Source of the DNA: Chryseobacterium sp. G0201
GTDB lineage: Bacteria; Bacteroidota; Bacteroidia; Flavobacteriales; Weeksellaceae
NCBI RefSeq assembly: GCF_003815655.1
Contig: NZ_CP033917.1
Location: forward strand, 3,348,001 to 3,412,000
DNA: 64,000 nucleotides
Direction: 5' to 3'
A model generated the notes under the pieces. That model had not been told where the DNA came from. It saw only the letters and a program-made list of their open reading frames with translations, and did no database searches. This document shows positions 2,048 to 12,061 of the stretch, one piece after another (the first letter of the stretch is position 1; each line of letters starts with the position of its first letter). The position numbers and the translations under genes were made by a program.

Positions 2048-3319
2048 TTATTTTACAATCAGTTTTTTGGTTTCTGTGTTTCCTCCGAAAGTTATTTTCA
2101 CAAGATAATTTCCTGCGGTAAGGTGAGAAAGATTCAAATCTTGCTTGTAGAAACCTGTCTGATTGGTTAATTCTGCCGTGTATACTTTTTTACCCGAAAG
2201 GTCGTATACTTCTACATTACCTTTATTATTCGCTTTTTCTTTAACATCGAATAAGACGGTAACGTGTTTATCAGCAGTTGTCGGGTTTGGATAAATACCG
2301 AATGAAGCTTTTTTATTAGCCATATCCGTAACTCCCAATGTTGAAGTGATATTTTTGTATTTGAAATACATATTACCAGTAGATTGACCTCCGTTTGAGA
2401 CAAAATACATTCTGTAATAGTCATTTCCTTTTTTAATATAGTACACTACATCACTGTAAACTCCTGAAACAGGCTTCCATGAGTGACCGATTGATGTAAT
2501 ATTGCTTGAAAAATTAACTGCTGCAGGAGCCGTAAAAGTAGATGTTGCCTGAGTTTCCGGCTGTACTTTTGCAACTGTGATGCTCGGATTTTGGATAACT
2601 CCTGAAAGCGGATACATCATGATGTTATTATAGAAAGTATAATACTTTGTAAACATCAAATCCCAAGCATTTTTTGCAGGTTCCAGATTAGCTACTTTAT
2701 CATTCGTTGTGAAAGAGAAATAGTTGAAAAAAGCATCGTCTGTTCCGTTTGCCAATGTTTTTGTTTGGGTAGCGTCCCAGGTTGTTCCGTTCCATTTAGA
2801 ATATTTGAAAGTATAACCTCCAAAATAATCCTGAATGGCAAATTTTATATATGTGTTATTTGGATATTTTAAAACAAATATAATTGTTCCTTCAATGTGG
2901 TGATTTGCCCCATTGTACTGTCCCCATCCGTATGGAGCAGAGCCTTGCTCAAAAGCACCTTCCTGAATAGTAGTTGTATTATCCGGATTATAAAGTGGTT
3001 CTCCCCAAGTTGATAAATTAGCGATATTGATATTATCCCAGTCTGCAAGGTTGTTTGAAGCCTGATACACCATAATATCTTTAGCATCATTGATTCTTGT
3101 TCCGAAATTCATTGCCGAATTTCTAAAAAATGCCACATCCCATGAATTGGCAGGTTGAGAAACAATATTATTTCCGGGTAAACTAAAAAATACACGGTTC
3201 TGGTATCCTGAACCCATAGAAAGATCTACCTGTGTATATCCGTTAGCATCTGTTTGAGCCAACACGGTTTGTTGAACTGATAGAGCAAATAGAGAAGATA
3301 AAAGTAGTTTTGTTTTCAT
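2048..3319 (-). CDS. Secreted HmuY-like protein with T9SS type A sorting domain
   Basis: The 423-residue protein begins with a Sec signal peptide ending ...VLAQ. Its body carries segments that match the HmuY lipoprotein encoded at 6590: RVFFSLPGN followed by NSWDVAFFR near residue 58, NAWDLMFTKYYTF near 217, and a late YYIKKGNDYYRMYF. HmuY proteins bind haem and pass it to a TonB receptor. The last 80 or so residues (FGIYPNPT...LVKITFGG...KLIVK) form a type A sorting domain that sends the protein through the type IX system to the surface or medium. The promoter element at 3344-3397 matches that of the haem operon. I infer a secreted haemophore; haem binding itself is unproven. Confidence 0.75.
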   Translation of the reverse strand: MKTKLLLSSLFALSVQQTVLAQTDANGYTQVDLSMGSGYQNRVFFSLPGNNIVSQPANSWDVAFFRNSAMNFGTRINDAKDIMVYQASNNLADWDNINIANLSTWGEPLYNPDNTTTIQEGAFEQGSAPYGWGQYNGANHHIEGTIIFVLKYPNNTYIKFAIQDYFGGYTFKYSKWNGTTWDATQTKTLANGTDDAFFNYFSFTTNDKVANLEPAKNAWDLMFTKYYTFYNNIMMYPLSGVIQNPSITVAKVQPETQATSTFTAPAAVNFSSNITSIGHSWKPVSGVYSDVVYYIKKGNDYYRMYFVSNGGQSTGNMYFKYKNITSTLGVTDMANKKASFGIYPNPTTADKHVTVLFDVKEKANNKGNVEVYDLSGKKVYTAELTNQTGFYKQDLNLSHLTAGNYLVKITFGGNTETKKLIVK

Positions 3320-3343
3320 AATATCTTAATGTTTATTTTTCCT

Positions 3344-3397
3344 TATTTAGAATGATTCCACAAAACTATATAAATTATTTTAACTATTCTAAATAAA
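3344..3397 (-). promoter_or_regulatory. Promoter with inverted operator arms shared with the haem operon
   Basis: TTATTTAGAA at 3344-3353 and TTCTAAATAA at 3388-3397 are exact inverted copies, 54 bp end to end. The left arm is part of TAGAAT-G-ATTCCA (3349-3361), a near-perfect 6-1-6 palindrome of the size used by Fur-family repressors. On the minus strand a perfect TAnnTTTG box (TAGTTTTG) sits at 3369-3362, next to it. The same layout with identical arm spacing recurs at 4361-4414. Fur as the binder is an inference. Confidence 0.7.
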
Positions 3398-3485
3398 AAC
3401 ATGATATTTATCGTGTTTGCTCATTAATAAATATGAAAACTCATTTAATAATGATCTTTAACAACTTATTTTAATTTTTGTTCAT

Positions 3486-3525
3486 AAAAAAAGCTGATCT
3501 ATGAAATTCATAAATCAGCCATTTT
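3486..3525 (-). terminator. Rho-independent terminator of the gene ending at 3550
   Basis: Read on the minus strand, GGCTGAT and ATCAGC arms with a self-pairing TATGAA/TTCATA interior precede a run of T residues. It separates the two minus-strand secreted-protein genes into independent transcripts. Confidence 0.8.
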
Positions 3526-3549
3526 AAATGTAAGTTAGTCTAATAAATC

Positions 3550-4350
3550 TTACTTTTTAATAAATTTTGATTTCACTACTGAACCTTCTGCAGTTTCAAT
3601 AATGATATAGTAAACGCCTGTTTGAAGAGCGCTGATATCGAATGTTTGTCCTTTTAATTTACCTTCAGCTACTTTTTGGCTTCCGGCAGAATAAACCTGA
3701 ATATTTTTAGGATCTTTCTTAGTTACAAACTGTAAAGCAGTGTTTTCAGCGTTTACAGCGAATTTGATTTCTTCTTTAGATTTTGCAGCATCAGAAACAG
3801 CTAGAGTAGAAGCGGTGTTGTAAACTACATTATCGATTTGAAGTGCTGTGTGAGCAGCAGTTGGAGTAAATTTAAAAACAATATATGTAGAAGAAGATGC
3901 AGGAACAGGAACTGTTACGTTCTGATACGTTTCACTTGTTAATGAAATTGGAGTTCCTAAAGATACAAATGTTGTCATATCTGTTGGGCTTGATGCCAAA
4001 CCTACTTCAAGAGTTCCGTTACCTCCTGATCCTGTAGCTTTTGCAGCAACAAAAGTTAACGTTTTGTTTCCTGTTGGAGCAACGATCTGTGGAGCGATCA
4101 AATATGAAGGTGCACTTGTGTTGTTTCCAGAATATGCCTGAACTGCTTTATCAGTTGCATTGGTAACGATCATTAGTGGTCCGGGAGGAAATGGCAGAGG
4201 ATTTGGCGCTATAACAGCTGTCCATCCGTTTTGAGGGAAAGTTGTACTTCCTGCAGTAAACCCGTCAAAGTTCTCATTAATAGTAGCTACTTGTGCATTA
4301 GCTGTCATAGCCGTAAGCATTAAAGTTCCAAAAAGTAGTCTTAATTTCAT
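3550..4350 (-). CDS. Secreted choice-of-anchor J (cleaved-adhesin-like) protein with T9SS sorting domain
   Basis: The start at 4350 gives a 266-residue protein with a clean signal peptide (MKLRLLFGTLMLTAMTANAQ). Upstream codons in the open frame look like non-coding promoter sequence. Residues 24-175 (INENFDGF...PQNGWT...SYLIAPQI...TALQIDNVVYN) match the choice-of-anchor J / cleaved-adhesin fold, the family that includes the haemagglutinin domains of Porphyromonas gingipains. The C-terminus (VYSAGSQKV...GVYYIIIET...SKFIKK) is a type A sorting domain. It is transcribed divergently from the haem receptor and shares its operator region, so I infer a surface protein that binds haem proteins or cells under iron limitation. 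No enzymatic motif is visible. Confidence 0.75.
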   Translation of the reverse strand: MKLRLLFGTLMLTAMTANAQVATINENFDGFTAGSTTFPQNGWTAVIAPNPLPFPPGPLMIVTNATDKAVQAYSGNNTSAPSYLIAPQIVAPTGNKTLTFVAAKATGSGGNGTLEVGLASSPTDMTTFVSLGTPISLTSETYQNVTVPVPASSSTYIVFKFTPTAAHTALQIDNVVYNTASTLAVSDAAKSKEEIKFAVNAENTALQFVTKKDPKNIQVYSAGSQKVAEGKLKGQTFDISALQTGVYYIIIETAEGSVVKSKFIKK

Positions 4351-4360
4351 AACGTTATCT

Positions 4361-4427
4361 TTATTTAGAATTATTCTACAAAAGTAATAAATTATTTTTA
4401 ATTGTTCTAAATAAAGCCCTATATTTG
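4361..4427. promoter_or_regulatory. Divergent haem-operon promoter with paired operator arms
   Basis: TTATTTAGAA at 4361-4370 and TTCTAAATAA at 4405-4414 are exact inverted arms 54 bp end to end. The left one lies in a perfect 6-1-6 palindrome, TAGAAT-T-ATTCTA (4366-4378). Minus-strand TACTTTTG (4386-4379) is the -7 box for the gene at 4350, just beside that palindrome. Plus-strand TATATTTG (4420-4427) is the -7 box for the receptor at 4445, and the right arm lies immediately before it. A repressor on both arms would silence both genes. Fur is the likely candidate by analogy only. Confidence 0.75.
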
Positions 4428-4444: not shown

Positions 4445-6580
4445 ATGAAGAAGAAAGTGCTTTCTATACTGTCTTTATCCACTGTTTTTTGGATGAGCGC
4501 ACAGGAAAAAGATTCTCTTAATCAGAAAAAAATAGAAGAAGTTGTCATTACCGGACAATACATGCAGCAATCTATTAATAAATCTATCTATAAAGTTGAG
4601 GTTATTGATGCTGAACAGATTAAAAATATGGCAGTTACAACTGCAGCAGAAGTTTTAAATCAAAATCTTAATATATTAATTGAGCCAAGTAGCGGAAGTG
4701 GAGATTCTAATGCCAGTATCATGGGGCTTAGCGGCGCTTACACAAAAGTACTTATTGATAACATTCCGGTTGTAAACGACAGAGGAATGGGAAACCAGGT
4801 AGATCTTAGTAAAATCAATGTAAATAATATTGAACGTATCGAGATCGTGAAAGGTGCAATGGGTGTAGAATACGGGAATAATGCTGTTGCAGGTGTTATT
4901 AACATTATTACCAAGAAAAATTATTCTAAAAAATTCAATGCTACCCTTTCTTTACAGGAAGAAACGATAGGAAAAGATTACGATTGGTTCAAAAAAGGAA
5001 ATGGACGACATGTTCAATCTTTAAACTTAGGATATAAATTATCCGAAAACTGGACCATCACAGCAGATATTAATCATAATGATTTCCAGGGATATAAGGG
5101 TAAATATAACGGGTACAAATATTTCACAGAAGGAAACGACGGAAACAGAGGTTATGAATGGTTACCAAAAGATCAAGTCACAGCCAACGCAGCGATACGT
5201 TACGCTAAAAATAATACAACTTTCTATTATAAGGTCAATTATCTGAACGAAGAAGTAAATTTCTACAATCAATTAATAGAAGATTTACCTTTAGGTGGAG
5301 GAAACAGAACGTATATTTCTAAAGACAAAGATTATTTTACAAACAGATGGATTCATCAGTTTAATATTCAGACGAAATTAGGGTCAAGAATCAACTATAA
5401 CGGGGATTTCTCTTACCAGACCCAAGAAAGAAAGTCTCAGGATTATATTTATGATGTCCCAAACAGACAGGAGATTTCCAGAGCAGACAAATCTACTTAT
5501 TTTGATTCTAAAGTGCTTTATTCAAGAGGGATGTTCAGTAATTTCCTTGATAGCGATAAAATAAACTTTCAGGTTGGTTACGAATTAGACAGGACTAGCG
5601 GTTTTGCTAATAACTCGGTTTTCGCAGGGAATACAAATCTTGACAATGTAAACAGAGCGATTTTTAATTATGCAAATTTCGTTTCAGCGGAATGGAGAGT
5701 TAATAATTGGTTCTCATTACGTCCGGGAGTAAGATTAGCTTTAAGTGATAAATTCGACAGCCAGTACAATTATTCATTAACTACAAGATTCAATACTACT
5801 GCAAATTCTGATCTTCGTGTTGTTTTTGGTTCTTCAAACAGATTTCCGACTTATGAGGAACTTTACACTTATGTAGTTGACAACAACCACGACATCAGAG
5901 GGAACGAAAATTTAAAGCCCGAAACAGGATATTCTCTAGGTGTATTCTGGGATTATAAAACGACAACGGCAAATTCTTGGAATTTCAATTTCAGTGCATC
6001 GGGAATGTATCTTGATGTGAAGGACAGAATCGAGGAGGTGATCATCAGCAACAGTCCTTTAAGATATACTTATTTAAATATAGATAAATACAGATCTCTG
6101 TTATTTGGAGGAGGAATTACTGCTAAAAAAGATCAATTATCTCTAAATGCAGGAGTTTCGGTAATGGGAATTTCTCAGGTTCTAAATGCCGGCGACATTG
6201 TATCTCCAAATGATTACAATTTTTATACAGAAGCAAATTTATCTGCAAACTATACTTTAGCCAAAACAAAAACATTATTTGCCCTTTATTACAAATATAC
6301 TGGAGTCAGAAAACAATATGTTCAGGAAGCTTCATCCAATCTTGCAGCTGATCCGAAATTTATTTTAGGTGAGGTAGGAGATTTTAATATGATGAATTTT
6401 ACTGTAACACAGCCTTTCTTTAATAATCATTTAGAATTAAGCTTAGGTATTAAAAATATTTTCGATGTGTCAACTGTAAGAAACTCGGTGATCAGTGGTA
6501 ATGCACATAATGCAGGTGCAAATGATCAAAACCTTTTGTATGGAAGAAGTTATTTCGCACGATTAAATTATAATTTTTAA
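4445..6580 (+). CDS. hmuR: TonB-dependent haem receptor (HmuR-like)
   Basis: A 711-residue outer-membrane receptor with signal peptide (ending FWMSAQ). A TonB-box-like EEVVITG at about residue 31 is followed by a plug domain that includes IMGLSGAYTKVLIDNIPV and the VEYGNNAVAGVINIITKK motif near residue 142. The beta barrel ends in a C-terminal aromatic (RLNYNF). Its position as first gene before HmuY, HmuTUV and HmuS points to haem as the ligand, which would be imported into the periplasm with TonB-ExbBD energy. No exb/ton genes are in the window. The FRAP/NPNL haem motif could not be pinned down with confidence; SSNRFPTYEEL near 465 lies where it would be expected. Confidence 0.85.
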   Translation: MKKKVLSILSLSTVFWMSAQEKDSLNQKKIEEVVITGQYMQQSINKSIYKVEVIDAEQIKNMAVTTAAEVLNQNLNILIEPSSGSGDSNASIMGLSGAYTKVLIDNIPVVNDRGMGNQVDLSKINVNNIERIEIVKGAMGVEYGNNAVAGVINIITKKNYSKKFNATLSLQEETIGKDYDWFKKGNGRHVQSLNLGYKLSENWTITADINHNDFQGYKGKYNGYKYFTEGNDGNRGYEWLPKDQVTANAAIRYAKNNTTFYYKVNYLNEEVNFYNQLIEDLPLGGGNRTYISKDKDYFTNRWIHQFNIQTKLGSRINYNGDFSYQTQERKSQDYIYDVPNRQEISRADKSTYFDSKVLYSRGMFSNFLDSDKINFQVGYELDRTSGFANNSVFAGNTNLDNVNRAIFNYANFVSAEWRVNNWFSLRPGVRLALSDKFDSQYNYSLTTRFNTTANSDLRVVFGSSNRFPTYEELYTYVVDNNHDIRGNENLKPETGYSLGVFWDYKTTTANSWNFNFSASGMYLDVKDRIEEVIISNSPLRYTYLNIDKYRSLLFGGGITAKKDQLSLNAGVSVMGISQVLNAGDIVSPNDYNFYTEANLSANYTLAKTKTLFALYYKYTGVRKQYVQEASSNLAADPKFILGEVGDFNMMNFTVTQPFFNNHLELSLGIKNIFDVSTVRNSVISGNAHNAGANDQNLLYGRSYFARLNYNF

Positions 6581-6589
6581 AATTTTAAA

Positions 6590-7675
6590 ATGAAAAAAAT
6601 ACTATTTGGTCTTTTGATAGGAGCATCTTTTATTTCACAGTCTTGCATTAATGATAATGAAGATCCTGTTGCAGTGTCTCCGATAGAGGGTTCAATTGTA
6701 AGTCCGCTAGTAGGTGGTGCTACAGAGCCGAATCAGGTTTGGTTTGATCTGAGTGAAGGAAAAGAAGTTCTTACAAAAAGAACAGATTGGGATCTTGCAT
6801 TTTATTCAGGAAGCAATTTCAAAGTAGTTTTGAATTCATCAATTATGATTGCTGCAGGAAAAATCCCGAGTGCTACCAATATCGATCAGGTTACAGAAGC
6901 TAGTGTGGCTACTTTGAAGACTCAGGTTCAGGTTGCGAATTTCAATCCTGCGAACGAAATTTATATTGATAATGTTAAAGGTAATTTCCCTACAGATTAT
7001 ACAGCGATCGAAGATGTAAAGGCTGTCGATTCTGAAAATGCTATCTACTTAGTAAACATGGGAAAAGAAATTTTCACAGGTGCCGTTCCGATAGGCTCTG
7101 TTTCAACAGGTGGTGACAGCAGAGGCTGGATGAAAGTTCAGGTTGTAAGATCCGGAGACGGCTACAAAGTAAAATATGCAGAAGTAGGCGCAACGACTCA
7201 TAAGGAATTGATTATTGCAAAAAATGCAGCTTACAATTATAATTTTGTGAGTTTAAAGAATAATAAAGAAGTATTTATTCAGCCGGAAAAAAAGAAGTGG
7301 GATATCTGTTTTACTGTATTTACTAACATTATTACAGGTGCAGGAAGTTATATCTATGCAGATTTTGTAACTCACAATAATGTAGGTGGAGTTGGAGCAT
7401 ATGAGGTAGTAGTTACTTCGGGGTCAGGTGTAGAAGCTTACAATAATTTCAAATCTTCAAATATCGATCAGTCTAAATTTATTTATAACGATCAGAGAAT
7501 AATAGGATCAAATTGGAGAAACCCTGTTGGTACAAACGGATTAGAAGTGTATGGTGATCGTTTCTATGTTATTAAAGATACAGATGGGTATTACTTTAAA
7601 TTGAGATTTACAAGATTAACCGATAGTAAAACTGGTGAACGTGGTTTCCCGCAATTCGAATACAAACCCTTATAA
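6590..7675 (+). CDS. hmuY: HmuY-family haem-binding lipoprotein
   Basis: The product has 361 residues and a lipoprotein signal peptide (FISQSC, lipid Cys at residue 19). Two HmuY-type segments are visible: QVWFDLSEGKEV followed by TDWDLAFYSG near residue 68, and KKWDICFTVF near 238 with YADFVTHN after it. It ends in FYVIKDTDGYYFKLRFTRL. HmuY proteins on the outer membrane capture haem and deliver it to HmuR, whose gene ends nine bases upstream. This one is longer than the roughly 216-residue P. gingivalis HmuY and appears to carry extra sequence before the second segment. Histidine ligands cannot be assigned from sequence alone. Confidence 0.82.
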   Translation: MKKILFGLLIGASFISQSCINDNEDPVAVSPIEGSIVSPLVGGATEPNQVWFDLSEGKEVLTKRTDWDLAFYSGSNFKVVLNSSIMIAAGKIPSATNIDQVTEASVATLKTQVQVANFNPANEIYIDNVKGNFPTDYTAIEDVKAVDSENAIYLVNMGKEIFTGAVPIGSVSTGGDSRGWMKVQVVRSGDGYKVKYAEVGATTHKELIIAKNAAYNYNFVSLKNNKEVFIQPEKKKWDICFTVFTNIITGAGSYIYADFVTHNNVGGVGAYEVVVTSGSGVEAYNNFKSSNIDQSKFIYNDQRIIGSNWRNPVGTNGLEVYGDRFYVIKDTDGYYFKLRFTRLTDSKTGERGFPQFEYKPL

Positions 7676-7698: not shown

Positions 7699-8577
7699 AT
7701 GAAAAAATTCATTCTTGCAGCTTCTGTGCTTGTTGCAGTGTATTCTTGCAAAAAAGAAGAAGGTGCTAAAAAAGAAAATTCTACGGAAGTAAGTTCTGAA
7801 ACTCCAAAATCTACTCATAAAATTGTTACTCTTAATGGAGGAATTACTGAAATCGTAAGCGCTCTGGGTCACGAAAAAGAAATCGTAGGAACTGATGTTA
7901 CAAGTACTTACCCGGAATCTTTAAAGGCTACGGCTAAAGATCTAGGTCACGTAAGATCAATGACGATTGAGCCGATCATGGCGGTTTCTCCAACATTAAT
8001 TTTAGCTTCAGATAAAGATATTAACCCAGATTTAATGGGTAAAATCAAGTCTTCAGGAATCAAAGCTGAAGTTTTTAAACAAGAATTTACAGTTGACGGA
8101 ACTAAAAAATTGATCGCTGAGGTTGCAAAAGCAATCGGTAACACAGATTATCAAAAATTAAACGATAAAATCGATGCTGATTTAAAACAAGTTCAGCCTA
8201 TCGCTAAAAAACCAAAAGTATTGTTCATCTACGCAAGAGGAAATATGTTGATGGTTTCAGGTACAAAAACTCCAATGGATGCATTGATAGGTTTTGCAGG
8301 TGGTGAAAATGCGGTGAAAGATTTCGAAGATTTCAAACCATTAACTCCGGAAGCGGTTGTTAAAGCTAATCCAGATGTATTATTCTTCTTCTCAAGCGGT
8401 TTACAAGGTGCCGGAGGAAACGAAGGTGCATTGAAAATGCCTGGTGTTTCTCAAACAAATGCGGGTAAAAACAAGAAGATTATTGCTATGGATGGAGGCC
8501 TGGTTTCAGGTTTCGGACCAAGATTAGGAGAGGCTGCTGTTGGATTAAACAAATTATTAATTGAAAACACAAAGTAA
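7699..8577 (+). CDS. hmuT: Haem ABC transporter substrate-binding lipoprotein (HmuT)
   Basis: This is a 292-residue periplasmic binding protein with lipobox VAVYSC (Cys at residue 16) followed by a Lys/Glu-rich linker. The fold is the class III (cobalamin/iron/haem) type: VTLNGGITEIVSALGHEKEIVG near residue 36, then RSMTIEPIMAVSPTLIL and YARGNMLMVSG near 176. These segments are characteristic of HmuT, which takes haem from the receptor and docks on HmuU. It overlaps the permease gene by 17 bases, so the two are translated together. Confidence 0.88.
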   Translation: MKKFILAASVLVAVYSCKKEEGAKKENSTEVSSETPKSTHKIVTLNGGITEIVSALGHEKEIVGTDVTSTYPESLKATAKDLGHVRSMTIEPIMAVSPTLILASDKDINPDLMGKIKSSGIKAEVFKQEFTVDGTKKLIAEVAKAIGNTDYQKLNDKIDADLKQVQPIAKKPKVLFIYARGNMLMVSGTKTPMDALIGFAGGENAVKDFEDFKPLTPEAVVKANPDVLFFFSSGLQGAGGNEGALKMPGVSQTNAGKNKKIIAMDGGLVSGFGPRLGEAAVGLNKLLIENTK

Positions 8578-9601
8578 ATTATACTTTTATCTTACTATAA
8601 GTACCATACTGCTGGTTATCATAGCAGTATGGTCACTTAATACAGGGGTTTACGACTTTGGAGGTAAATCCGCGTTTGAAGTTTTAGGAAAAGTAATACA
8701 AGGAGATTCGGGTTTATCATTAAGTGATAAATATGTAGTTTGGGACGTAAGAGCTGCCAGAATTATCATGGCGATTCTTATCGGAAGTATGCTCGCAGTT
8801 TCGGGAACGGGATTGCAGGGATTGTTTAAAAATCCTTTGGCGACGGGTGATTTGATAGGATTAACTTCGGGTGCGACATTGCTTGCTGCAATTGCTATCG
8901 TTTTAGGAGGGCATTTCAAACAATATCTTCCTGAAGCTGTACAATTTTCACTGGTGGGAATTTCGGCTTTTATAGGAGCTTTTTTATCAATGATGCTGGT
9001 GTACAGGATTTCGACAAGCGGAGGAAAGACAAATGTTGTCATGATGTTGTTGACCGGGGTTGCGATCACAGCAATCGGCTTTTCGATTACAGGTTTTTTG
9101 ATCTATATTTCAAAAGACGACCAATTAAGAGATTTAACGTTCTGGAATTTAGGGAGTTTAGCCGCTGCAACATGGACGAAGAATATTATTTTGACAGTAG
9201 TTTTAATCATTTCCTACATCATTTTAATTCCAAAAGGAAAAGCATTAAATGCGATGATGTTAGGTGAAAAAGATGCACAGCATTTAGGAATTAACGTTGA
9301 AAGATTAAAGAAACAGATCATTATCATGACTGCATTAATGGTCGGAAGCTGCGTTGCATTTTCAGGAACGATTGGTTTTGTAGGTCTTATTGTACCTTAT
9401 ATTTTAAGACTTTTATTTAAATCAAATTACGCTTTCATTTTGCCGCTGTCAGCCATTTTCGGAAGTATTTTGCTGTTGACGGCAGATACTTTCAGCAGAA
9501 GTATTGTTGAGCCTTCAGAACTGCCGATCGGTATTTTGACGGCATTAATGGGAGGTCCGATTTTTATTGCAATTTTGGTTAAATTCAAAAAATCAATGTA
9601 A
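8561..9601 (+). CDS. hmuU: Haem ABC transporter permease (HmuU, FecCD family)
   Basis: A 346-residue FecCD-type permease with about ten hydrophobic helices. Family motifs include WDVRAARIIMAILIGSMLAVSGTGLQG near residues 60-86, NPLATGDLIGLTSGA, and GTIGFVGLIVPYILRLL near 270, which contacts the ATPase. The start is a TTG at 8561, within the last 17 bases of hmuT. There is no in-frame ATG before the first helix would be lost, so the TTG is required. Translational coupling to hmuT probably compensates for the weak start codon. Confidence 0.87.
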   Translation: MKTQSKLYFYLTISTILLVIIAVWSLNTGVYDFGGKSAFEVLGKVIQGDSGLSLSDKYVVWDVRAARIIMAILIGSMLAVSGTGLQGLFKNPLATGDLIGLTSGATLLAAIAIVLGGHFKQYLPEAVQFSLVGISAFIGAFLSMMLVYRISTSGGKTNVVMMLLTGVAITAIGFSITGFLIYISKDDQLRDLTFWNLGSLAAATWTKNIILTVVLIISYIILIPKGKALNAMMLGEKDAQHLGINVERLKKQIIIMTALMVGSCVAFSGTIGFVGLIVPYILRLLFKSNYAFILPLSAIFGSILLLTADTFSRSIVEPSELPIGILTALMGGPIFIAILVKFKKSM

Positions 9602-10374
9602 TGATTAAAGCAAACCAAATTAATTATAAACATAAAGAATTCCATATTCTGGAGGGCGTCGACGTCTCTTTGGAATATGGGGAGTTCTTGGCAATTGTTG
9701 GTCCTAATGGAGCCGGAAAGTCAAGTTTATTAAGTGTTTTGGCGAATGAAGTAAAATCTGGTAAGCAAAATATTTTATTTAAAGATAAACCGATTACGGC
9801 TTGGGATATTAAAGAATTATCGAAGCATAAAGCCAAATTTTCTCAGCACAACAGCAATGACATTCCTTTGGAAGTGAAAGACGTTGTCATGATGGGACGT
9901 TACCCGTATTTCGATGCACAGCCAAGAAAAGAGGATCTTGAAGCAATGAATAATATGCTGTATGAAACAGATGTTTTTCATTTGAAAGACAGGGAGTACA
10001 ACACTTTATCAGGCGGGGAAAAACAACGTGTTCATCTGTCAAGAGTATTGGCGCAACTGCAAAATGAAATTGCCCACAAATTACTTTTCTTAGACGAACC
10101 ATTGAATAATTTAGATGTAAAACATCAATATAAAGCTTTAGAAATAATTAAAAAATTCACTCAAAAGGCTAATTCTGCCATTGTTGTTCTTCATGATTTA
10201 AATCTTGCAGCACAATATGCAGACAAAATATTATTAATGAAATCAGGAAGGGTAGCAGCATACGGAACACCGGAGGAAGTTTTCACTGCAAAAAATATCA
10301 GTGAAGCATACAATTTCCCATGTACTATTTGCGATCACCCGATTACCAATAACCCAATGATCATTTTTGGATAA
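9601..10374 (+). CDS. hmuV: Haem ABC transporter ATP-binding protein (HmuV)
   Basis: The product is a 257-residue ABC ATPase. Walker A is GPNGAGKSSLL (residues 34-44), the signature LSGGEKQRVHLSRVLAQL lies near 137, Walker B LLFLDEPLNNLD near 161, and the H-loop VVLHDLNLA near 198. It powers haem import through HmuTU on the cytoplasmic face. Its ATG shares a base with the hmuU stop (TAATG), so the cassette is tightly coupled. Confidence 0.9.
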   Translation: MIKANQINYKHKEFHILEGVDVSLEYGEFLAIVGPNGAGKSSLLSVLANEVKSGKQNILFKDKPITAWDIKELSKHKAKFSQHNSNDIPLEVKDVVMMGRYPYFDAQPRKEDLEAMNNMLYETDVFHLKDREYNTLSGGEKQRVHLSRVLAQLQNEIAHKLLFLDEPLNNLDVKHQYKALEIIKKFTQKANSAIVVLHDLNLAAQYADKILLMKSGRVAAYGTPEEVFTAKNISEAYNFPCTICDHPITNNPMIIFG

Positions 10375-11032: not shown

Positions 11033-12061
11033 ATGAGCACATTAGTAAACGATCTAAAAGGAAAATGGGACGCTCTGAAAGCTGAAAACCCACATTTAAG
11101 AATAAGAAATGCTGCCGTAGAGCTGGGCGTAAGCGAAGCTGAATTATTAGCAACAAACATTGGCGAAGGCGTAACCGTTTTAAAGCCGGAATTTAAAGAT
11201 ATTTTAACTGAAGCAGAAAAATTAGGAAAAGTAATGGCTCTTACGCGTAACGAAGAGTGCGTTCACGAGAGAAAAGGGACTTATCTTAATGGAGATTTCA
11301 GCAGTCCTCACGCTCAACTTTTTGTAGGTGAGGATATCGATTTAAGAATTTTCCTTAATCACTGGAAATTCGCTTTCGGAGTGGTAGAAGGTGACAAAAA
11401 AAGTCTTCAGTTCTTCGGAAAAGACGGATTGGCTTTACACAAAATTTATTTGACAAAAGACAGTAATGCAGAAGCTTTCGATGCTATCGTTGAAAAATTC
11501 AAAGCTGAAGATCAAAATCAAGTATTAGAGTTTGAAGCAGTTGCTCCAAAAGCTCCCGAAAAAGCTGATTCTGAAATTGATGCTGAAGGTTTCAAAAAAG
11601 CATGGACAGAATTAAAAGATACTCACGATTTCTTCATGATGACACGAAAATTCGGAGTGAGCAGAACTCAGGCGTTGAGATTGGCTCCTGAAGGATATGC
11701 TAAAAAAATTGACAGTGCAAAAGTGGTAACAGTTCTTGAAGATGCTTCTGAAAACGGTCTTCCGATCATGGTTTTCGTTGGAAACAGAGGAATTATCCAG
11801 ATTCATACAGGAGACGTTAAGAAAACACTTTGGCATCAACAATGGTTCAACGTAATGGATCCTGATTTTAATTTACACCTTGATGTAACGAAAATCGCAG
11901 AAGCTTGGATCGTTAAAAAACCAACTGAAGACGGTGAAGTTACAGCAATTGAGGTCTTCAACAAAGAAGGCGATTTTATCGTTCAGTTCTTCGGAAAAAG
12001 AAAACCAGGAATTCCTGAATTACAAGAGTGGAAAGACCTTGTAGCAGAATTAGAAAAATAA
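11033..12061 (+). CDS. hmuS: Haemin-degrading factor / haem-trafficking protein (HmuS/HemS)
   Basis: A cytoplasmic protein of 342 residues with the internal duplication typical of HemS/HmuS/ChuS. The first half contains LRIRNAAVELGVSEAELLAT (residues 20-39) and VMALTRNEECVHERKG; the second half contains FFMMTRKFGVSRTQALRLAP and FVGNRGIIQIHTGDVKK near residue 250. Relatives bind haem delivered by HmuUV and either degrade it or hand it on. It ends the operon and is followed by a terminator. The sequence does not show whether it is an oxygenase or only a carrier. Confidence 0.88.
   Translation: MSTLVNDLKGKWDALKAENPHLRIRNAAVELGVSEAELLATNIGEGVTVLKPEFKDILTEAEKLGKVMALTRNEECVHERKGTYLNGDFSSPHAQLFVGEDIDLRIFLNHWKFAFGVVEGDKKSLQFFGKDGLALHKIYLTKDSNAEAFDAIVEKFKAEDQNQVLEFEAVAPKAPEKADSEIDAEGFKKAWTELKDTHDFFMMTRKFGVSRTQALRLAPEGYAKKIDSAKVVTVLEDASENGLPIMVFVGNRGIIQIHTGDVKKTLWHQQWFNVMDPDFNLHLDVTKIAEAWIVKKPTEDGEVTAIEVFNKEGDFIVQFFGKRKPGIPELQEWKDLVAELEK

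Follow-up and report, generated by a model that had tools for sequence, protein, structure and literature searches.

The window analysed in this study is a stretch of 64,000 nucleotides from Chryseobacterium sp. G0201 (contig NZ_CP033917.1, positions 3,348,001 to 3,412,000 of the forward strand). It contains a haem uptake operon and two leftward genes for secreted proteins, as follows.

Positions 2048 to 3319, minus strand: HmuY-like protein of 423 aa with a type IX type A sorting tail
Positions 3550 to 4350, minus strand: choice-of-anchor J protein of 266 aa with a gingipain-adhesin-like fold and a type IX tail
Positions 4445 to 6580, plus strand: hmuR, TonB-dependent receptor with a Plug domain
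Positions 6590 to 7675, plus strand: hmuY (PF14064; type IX tail not matched)
Positions 7699 to 8577, plus strand: haem ABC substrate-binding protein (PF01497)
Positions 8561 to 9601, plus strand: haem ABC permease, an ORF named by eye from position and sequence
Positions 9601 to 10374, plus strand: haem ABC ATPase (NF010068, over cut-off)
Positions 11033 to 12061, plus strand: HemS/ChuX haem-handling protein (PF05171)

In the rightward run the ATPase gene is followed by genes for a methyltransferase, the HemS/ChuX protein and a ChaN-like haem-binding protein. The 423-aa and 266-aa proteins are called here the haemophore and the adhesin-like protein, respectively.

The tails of the two secreted proteins score 59.2 and 29.4 bits against TIGR04183 (cut-off 23). 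The PF18962 tail was found at E ≤ 0.1 in 27 of 27 orthologues of the 423-aa protein and 21 of 21 of the 266-aa protein, the 266-aa protein of the window itself staying under the Pfam cut-off (23.8 vs 27). In a profile comparison based on shallow alignments, the 423-aa protein matched the neighbouring hmuY product with a probability of 98.3% (E 1.2e-14). PF14064 was detected at E ≤ 0.1 in 6 of the 27 orthologues, and the window protein gave no PF14064 match at E 0.1 or better. Its structural model (mean pLDDT 78.7) aligned with PinO (Z 12.4, rmsd 2.9 over 126) and with HmuY (Z 10.5, rmsd 3.3 over 130). A Foldseek search with this model gave no match below 0.001, and HmuY was seen on realignment only. 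Judged by profile and modelled fold, the 423-aa protein is a HmuY homologue. Its best match among named genomes was in Chryseobacterium limigenitum (95% identical).

The model of the 266-aa protein (mean pLDDT 81.8) has a jelly-roll fold. Its top three structural rows are the cleaved adhesin domains K1, K2 and K3 of Lys-gingipain (Z 15.7, rmsd 2.5 over 144; 15.2, 2.8 over 146; and 14.9, 3.0 over 146), with which the carbohydrate-binding 2y64 (Z 14.9) and meprin (Z 14.8) tie, CBM4 and MAM chains lying within Z 1 of the K1-K3 rows. A weak profile match to Lys-gingipain 3m1h (E 5.7e-4) was also obtained. PF07675 (cleaved adhesin) was found in one of 21 adhesin-like orthologues (E 0.047) and not in the window protein, and the score for the T9SS DNase family NF052644 (63.4 bits) was under the curated cut-off of 260. 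In Lys-gingipain, K1-K3 are part of a protease, whereas the 266-aa protein is one domain without a protease. Passages of PMC11500903 link P. gingivalis proteins with the cleaved adhesin domain to haem binding and haemagglutination. The secreted proteins may bind haem or haemoglobin, and for the 266-aa protein haemoglobin is a candidate ligand.

Two elements with identical inverted arms, TTATTTAGAA and TTCTAAATAA, at identical spacing had been predicted at this locus. Both are present and each is 54 bp long.

Positions 3343 to 3396, no strand: element A, upstream of the HmuY-like type IX gene
Positions 4361 to 4414, no strand: element B, between the adhesin-like gene and hmuR

The arms start at 3343 and 3387 in element A and at 4361 and 4405 in element B. 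Element B was found exactly where it had been placed, and element A, first given as 3344-3397, lies one base further left. At up to three mismatches the only arm pairs in the window are A and B; 100 dinucleotide shuffles of the window gave on average 0.08 pairs at this threshold, and none of the 100 held two. Exact arm pairs with 30-40 bases between the arms occur in the whole 4.81-Mb genome at A and B only, and a reversed control pattern had no match.

Each element had been read as one operator with one 6-1-6 core. The far arm is instead the outer half of a second box. When each element was scanned with the published 19-bp Fur box of Riemerella anatipestifer and the two best windows were taken, two 19-bp sites close to that box were found in each.

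Positions 3345 to 3363, no strand: Fur-type box A1, centred on 3354, with 4 mismatches to the Riemerella box; it shares bases with the downstream end of the leftward -7 box
Positions 3376 to 3394, no strand: Fur-type box A2, centre 3385; 5 mismatches; outer half intact, inner half degenerate
Positions 4363 to 4381, no strand: Fur-type box B1, centre 4372; 2 mismatches to the Riemerella box
Positions 4394 to 4412, no strand: Fur-type box B2, centre 4403; 3 mismatches; upstream of the hmuR -7 box

The centres of the two boxes are 31 bp apart in both A and B. This distance, about three helix turns, would put a pair of Fur dimers on the same side of the DNA. The palindrome of box 2 is poor; in element B, ATTTAGAACAATTAAAAAT is box B2 as read on the minus strand. 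The final positions of box 1 depart from the palindrome, and this may be because of the overlap with the leftward -7 box (TAnTTTTG).

All three -7 boxes described in the original prediction were located.

Positions 3361 to 3368, minus strand: -7 box TAGTTTTG of the HmuY-like gene
Positions 4379 to 4386, minus strand: -7 box TACTTTTG of the adhesin-like gene
Positions 4420 to 4427, plus strand: -7 box TATATTTG of hmuR

One repressor acting on three promoters had been proposed. The -7 boxes agree with three promoters, one leftward at A and two at B, and more than one regulator may act on them. Element A serves one promoter only because an hmuR-like -7 box has been lost there: by eye, none of the 50 A copies that have the right arm carries an hmuR-type -7 box. 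In the hmuR-facing copies of relatives TATATTTG is present in 56 of 60. The leftward -7 box, examined in 90 elements, has six of eight columns invariant and one at 89/90, the eighth being free.

The exact arm pair is widespread in the genus. It was found in 101 of 118 genomes, at no more than three places per genome, and was absent from 17; the reversed control gave none. In a scan of the order, 29 of 296 genomes, representing 4 of 90 genera, had the exact pair: 22 belong to the genus of the window, five to one other genus of the family, and two are single genomes elsewhere. From the matches of these two scans a part, 49 loci, was fetched, and 47 of them lie beside hmuR, the adhesin-like gene or the haemophore-like gene. 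The other two come from other families and are not at the hmu locus, one of them lying 36 bp from the start of a TonB receptor gene. Scattering of the arms over unrelated genes, which would count against the prediction, was not seen, 47 of 47 loci from the carrier genera being at the haem locus.

Relatives were then collected by a scan for the 423-aa protein, which gave 63 loci; 61 were used and the distant L094 and L095 were dropped. With an element counted at two or fewer mismatches per arm, it was found in 48 of 52 A regions and 52 of 60 B regions examined. The length is 54 bp in 90 of the 100 copies and 53, 55 or 56 in the rest, the A copies comprising 41 of 54 bp and seven of 55 bp. There were 12 misses. 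In seven, the adhesin-like gene and hmuR are about 250 bp apart and box 1 has decayed; four of these seven have two adhesin-like copies. The other five are three Epilithonimonas loci with box 2 in reversed orientation, one locus that lacks the left arm, and Moheibacter. Because box 2 is turned round in three loci named as Epilithonimonas that have the adhesin-like gene, it is a unit of its own. The 90 elements of 54 bp had been picked on their arms alone, and the inner halves of their boxes are nearly invariant as well. Mean information was 1.81-1.88 bits in the boxes, 1.18-1.39 in the spacer, 0.68-1.08 in the left flank and 0.44-0.76 in the outer right flank.

The gene content around the elements varies. 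The adhesin-like gene is absent in nine loci; in eight of them the haemophore gene faces hmuR over one element or its remains, and in the ninth the two genes are 390 bp apart. A tenth locus has neither the adhesin-like gene nor hmuR nearby. Other loci (L112, L114 and L124) lack the haemophore gene and keep the adhesin-like gene, the element and hmuR; a haemophore search in their genomes (G114, G008 and G064) gave weak matches only. One genome of the other carrier genus has three successive elements, along with the haemophore gene and two copies of the adhesin-like gene (G207, L235). The presence of the adhesin-like gene requires at least six changes on the haemophore tree, so more than one order of events is possible and the adhesin-less arrangement is not concluded to be ancestral. 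As a separate observation, about 375-420 extra bases lie between the adhesin-side element and hmuR in L047, L048, L051, L054 and L076, and both boxes are kept on the adhesin side of these loci.

Similar boxes are found elsewhere in the genome. The box TTATTTAGAATNATTNNA has six exact places, two of which are box 1 of A and B, and the reversed pattern has none. The four places outside the hmu locus are at two siderophore receptor genes, one Fe-S assembly gene and one gene for an AMP-binding enzyme; both receptors exceed the TIGR01783 cut-off. Two unlinked siderophore receptor genes have a B2-like form, TTATTTAGAATAATTAAA, 33 and 0 bases ahead of their start codons. At locus L160 (1501-1518), the centre of an exact box is 14 bp from the start of a gene for an Fe-S assembly protein of the SufA/IscA type.

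Looser matching carried less information. At one mismatch TTATTTAGAATNATTNNA is near background, with 17 listed places vs 12 reversed (at one or fewer mismatches, 25 matches by count correspond to 23 places in the list), and at two or fewer any excess is slight (107 and 113 vs 106 and 83 for controls). The start of an iron or haem gene lies less than 100 bp from the site centre at 8 of 19 sites vs 1 of 12 controls (one-sided p 0.05), the four places inside A and B being excluded, distance being taken from site centre to ORF start, neighbours being classed by Pfam scans with some further-off neighbours left out, one control being ferritin-like and one real site lying by a haem-binding protein. 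When TonB or PepSY genes alone were counted, the numbers were 5 of 19 vs 0 of 12 (p 0.07). An earlier Fisher test (7/19 vs 0/12, p 0.019) was dropped because its controls had been classed by eye. A search with the palindromic 17-mer TTTAGAATNATTCTAAA at three mismatches was useless, with 318 places per strand vs 272 for the reversed control. A one-mismatch box was also observed at L167 (1501-1518), between a gene for a protein with a haem-binding domain and a divergent peroxidase gene (KatG type by eye).

One further type IX gene, unlinked to the hmu locus, has a box with one mismatch just before it.

L238 1316-3047, equal to G000:C1 609115 to about 610846: FG-GAP type IX gene, with a Fur-like box right behind the -7 box

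The product, an FG-GAP protein of 570 aa, has a type IX tail (TIGR04183, 51.1 bits vs a cut-off of 23) and is present in 49 of 78 genomes of the genus. The 30 best of these 49 matches, which are mutually related, all retain the box, each time with an identical single mismatch (30 of 30 loci). When the letters of the upstream 100 bases were shuffled, an equal match arose in 0.1% of cases.

Three genes of the genome encode Fur-family proteins over the PF01475 cut-off. The main Fur protein is 79% identical to that of G167, apparently R. anatipestifer. The second is nearest to Fur models and the third to a Zur model; all three are under the NCBIfam equivalog cut-offs, and these names are tentative. 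G167 is taken to be R. anatipestifer because its box lies at distances of 25 and 78 bases from two start codons, the values printed for strain YM.

The Fur regulon of R. anatipestifer is the closest known system. Purified Fur of this species shifts boxed promoters and binds a fragment with the hmuR promoter, and with iron present, hmuR, hmuY and the divergent neighbour are 2.3- to 2.6-fold higher once fur is lost (PMC5609570). Passages of other papers report that Fur binds rhuB, whose iron response is lost in a fur mutant (PMC10986502), and that the hmu genes and the adjacent gene respond strongly to iron (PMC5429918). The sequence GATAATGATAATCATTATC, quoted in a passage of PMC7976709 as the Fur box of R. 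anatipestifer YM, differs from that in the YM paper itself. The two systems are alike in that they belong to the same family, use the same 19-bp box, have hmuR and hmuY among the genes concerned (up in the fur mutant) and show co-regulation of a gene that diverges from them over an intergenic region with Fur boxes. G167 differs in that the gene divergent from hmuR encodes a DUF6607 protein without a type IX tail, and in that its two boxes are, by eye, about 46 bp apart with their better halves facing inward. RAYM_06185, which is divergent from hmuR, was considered as an orthologue of the haemophore and dropped, since in G167 it is the DUF6607 protein, with box distances as in Table 5 of PMC5609570. 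In two genomes of another genus (L201 and L202), two Fur-like boxes lie between a TonB receptor gene and a DUF6607-type gene that diverge from each other. L201, the one that was scanned, is apparently the hmuR locus of R. anatipestifer, and the arrangement suggests a role of DUF6607 in iron or haem uptake.

From these comparisons we consider it likely that each 54-bp element is a twin Fur operator, that iron-loaded Fur represses the three promoters and that the elements were duplicated together with a cargo gene. The original prediction had offered Fur as the binder. This gains support from the match of the boxes to one on promoters shifted by R. anatipestifer Fur and from the presence of a Fur gene, though Fur may not act alone. 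When iron is plentiful, Fe-Fur dimers would occupy both boxes of each element. Occupation of box 1 would block the leftward promoter by overlapping the downstream end of its -7 box, and occupation of box 2, just upstream of the hmuR -7 box, would block the rightward promoter. When iron is short, Fur would leave, and the type IX haemophore, the gingipain-like adhesin and the haem importer would be made together. Elements A and B would be copies of one divergent promoter, duplicated with the cargo gene, and the copy that no longer faces hmuR would have lost that promoter and kept both boxes. Fur binding in this species, repression and duplication are all what we infer from sequence.

A regulator other than the main Fur, namely another member of the Fur family or a haem-responsive protein such as CdhR, which is named in a passage of PMC10434189 as acting on hmuYR, might own the element alone or beside Fur; we regard this as rather unlikely. 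In R. anatipestifer, hmuR, hmuY and the divergent gene respond to iron 7.7- to 8.4-fold in the fur mutant vs 6.7- to 7.9-fold in the wild type (PMC5609570, Table 4). A second iron regulator is therefore possible. The genome has three Fur-family genes, and Fur models are the nearest for the second one too; the exact arm pair is confined to the hmu locus; and a palindrome of another kind lies beside element A. All of this would suit another regulator. However, the Fur box that these boxes match is a published one backed by mobility shifts, two siderophore receptor genes and an Fe-S gene have exact boxes of this type, and the third Fur-family protein comes closest to a Zur model, a tentative name. 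Fur acting at twin boxes remains our preferred reading.

The palindrome beside element A is conserved.

Positions 3397 to 3418, no strand: conserved palindrome AAACATGATATTTATCGTGTTT, at the place where the hmuR -7 box would be

To the right of box 2 the A copies align with the hmuR promoter, and GAY-N4-RTC replaces the -7 box in 47 of 53; in 33 of those 47 it is symmetrical (GAT..ATC or GAC..GTC). An extended form of the palindrome has one exact match in the genome. We take the palindrome to be Crp/FNR-like in look. A terminator of the adhesin-like gene is an unlikely identity for it, as a stem and T-run of that gene's own lie near 3486-3522 (by eye) and the palindrome recurs, by eye, without a leftward gene upstream in some of the loci with the gap of about 250 bp (L039, L042, L043, L046 and L089). 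The stem with T-run at window positions 3486-3522 looks by eye like the terminator of the adhesin-like gene. At the Riemerella-like locus L201 a similar palindrome, TGATATTTATCA, lies between its two Fur boxes.

The likeness of A and B could come from duplication only, box 2 of A being a functionless relic. The copies do look homologous and the hmuR -7 box is gone in A. Nevertheless box 2 is as conserved in A as in B, with mean bits per position of 1.81 (41 A copies) and 1.82 (B copies), over haemophores down to about 60% identity; by eye it is lost in none of the 52 A regions, the copies having been picked by their arms. We consider the relic very improbable. That the arms form an RNA or DNA hairpin (an attenuator or cruciform) instead of protein sites is hardly credible: they are exact inverted repeats at nearly fixed spacing, but, going by the -7 boxes, the leftward transcript includes just the left arm and the hmuR transcript has no arm at all, three Epilithonimonas A copies have their second arm in direct orientation, and the inner box halves are conserved too.

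Type IX cargo has been joined to haem uptake in other Bacteroidota. According to passages of PMC9618737, the HmuY of Flavobacterium columnare likewise has an HmuY-like domain with Por_Secre_tail and is secreted by the type IX system; here, by comparison, the type IX copy is divergent from hmuR and there is a separate operon hmuY without a matched tail. Passages of PMC10434189 report 104- and 87-fold induction by iron shortage for a Prevotella intermedia type IX protein encoded next to hmuY and for Porphyromonas gingivalis PG0495. These also join type IX cargo to haem uptake, but their gene layout is different and those passages mention no Fur box. In passages on relatives, the hfp haem operon of F. 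psychrophilum is described as iron-repressed (PMC9331221), and a Tenacibaculum genome paper names hmuR and hmuY homologues (PMC5561996). The terms hmu, T9SS and type IX are absent from the main text of an Elizabethkingia anophelis iron paper (PMC7221216), and our literature search found no published Fur box or twin box at the Chryseobacterium hmu locus. Published work thus already covers Fur boxes, a type IX HmuY and type IX neighbours of hmuY that iron shortage induces. To these the present analysis adds a twin-box element and cargo gained in the manner of a cassette, within a known kind of system.

Taken jointly, these observations allow a wider proposal, which we put forward tentatively and hold to be possible but somewhat doubtful as a whole. 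The twin-Fur divergent promoter may be a cassette that is copied with type IX cargo (the haemophore, and the adhesin, sometimes twice), adding secreted proteins to the iron-starvation programme. The unlinked FG-GAP type IX protein would have its own single box. The dead -7 box in A may have turned into a second palindromic operator (TGAT-N4-ATCA-like) for another regulator.

In conclusion, the elements would provide a genus-wide link, at the level of sequence, between the iron sensor Fur and proteins secreted by the type IX system. Induction of type IX proteins by iron shortage could be traced to named promoters and testable boxes in a genus that is mostly environmental. A promoter and its cargo gene may have been gained and lost as a unit.
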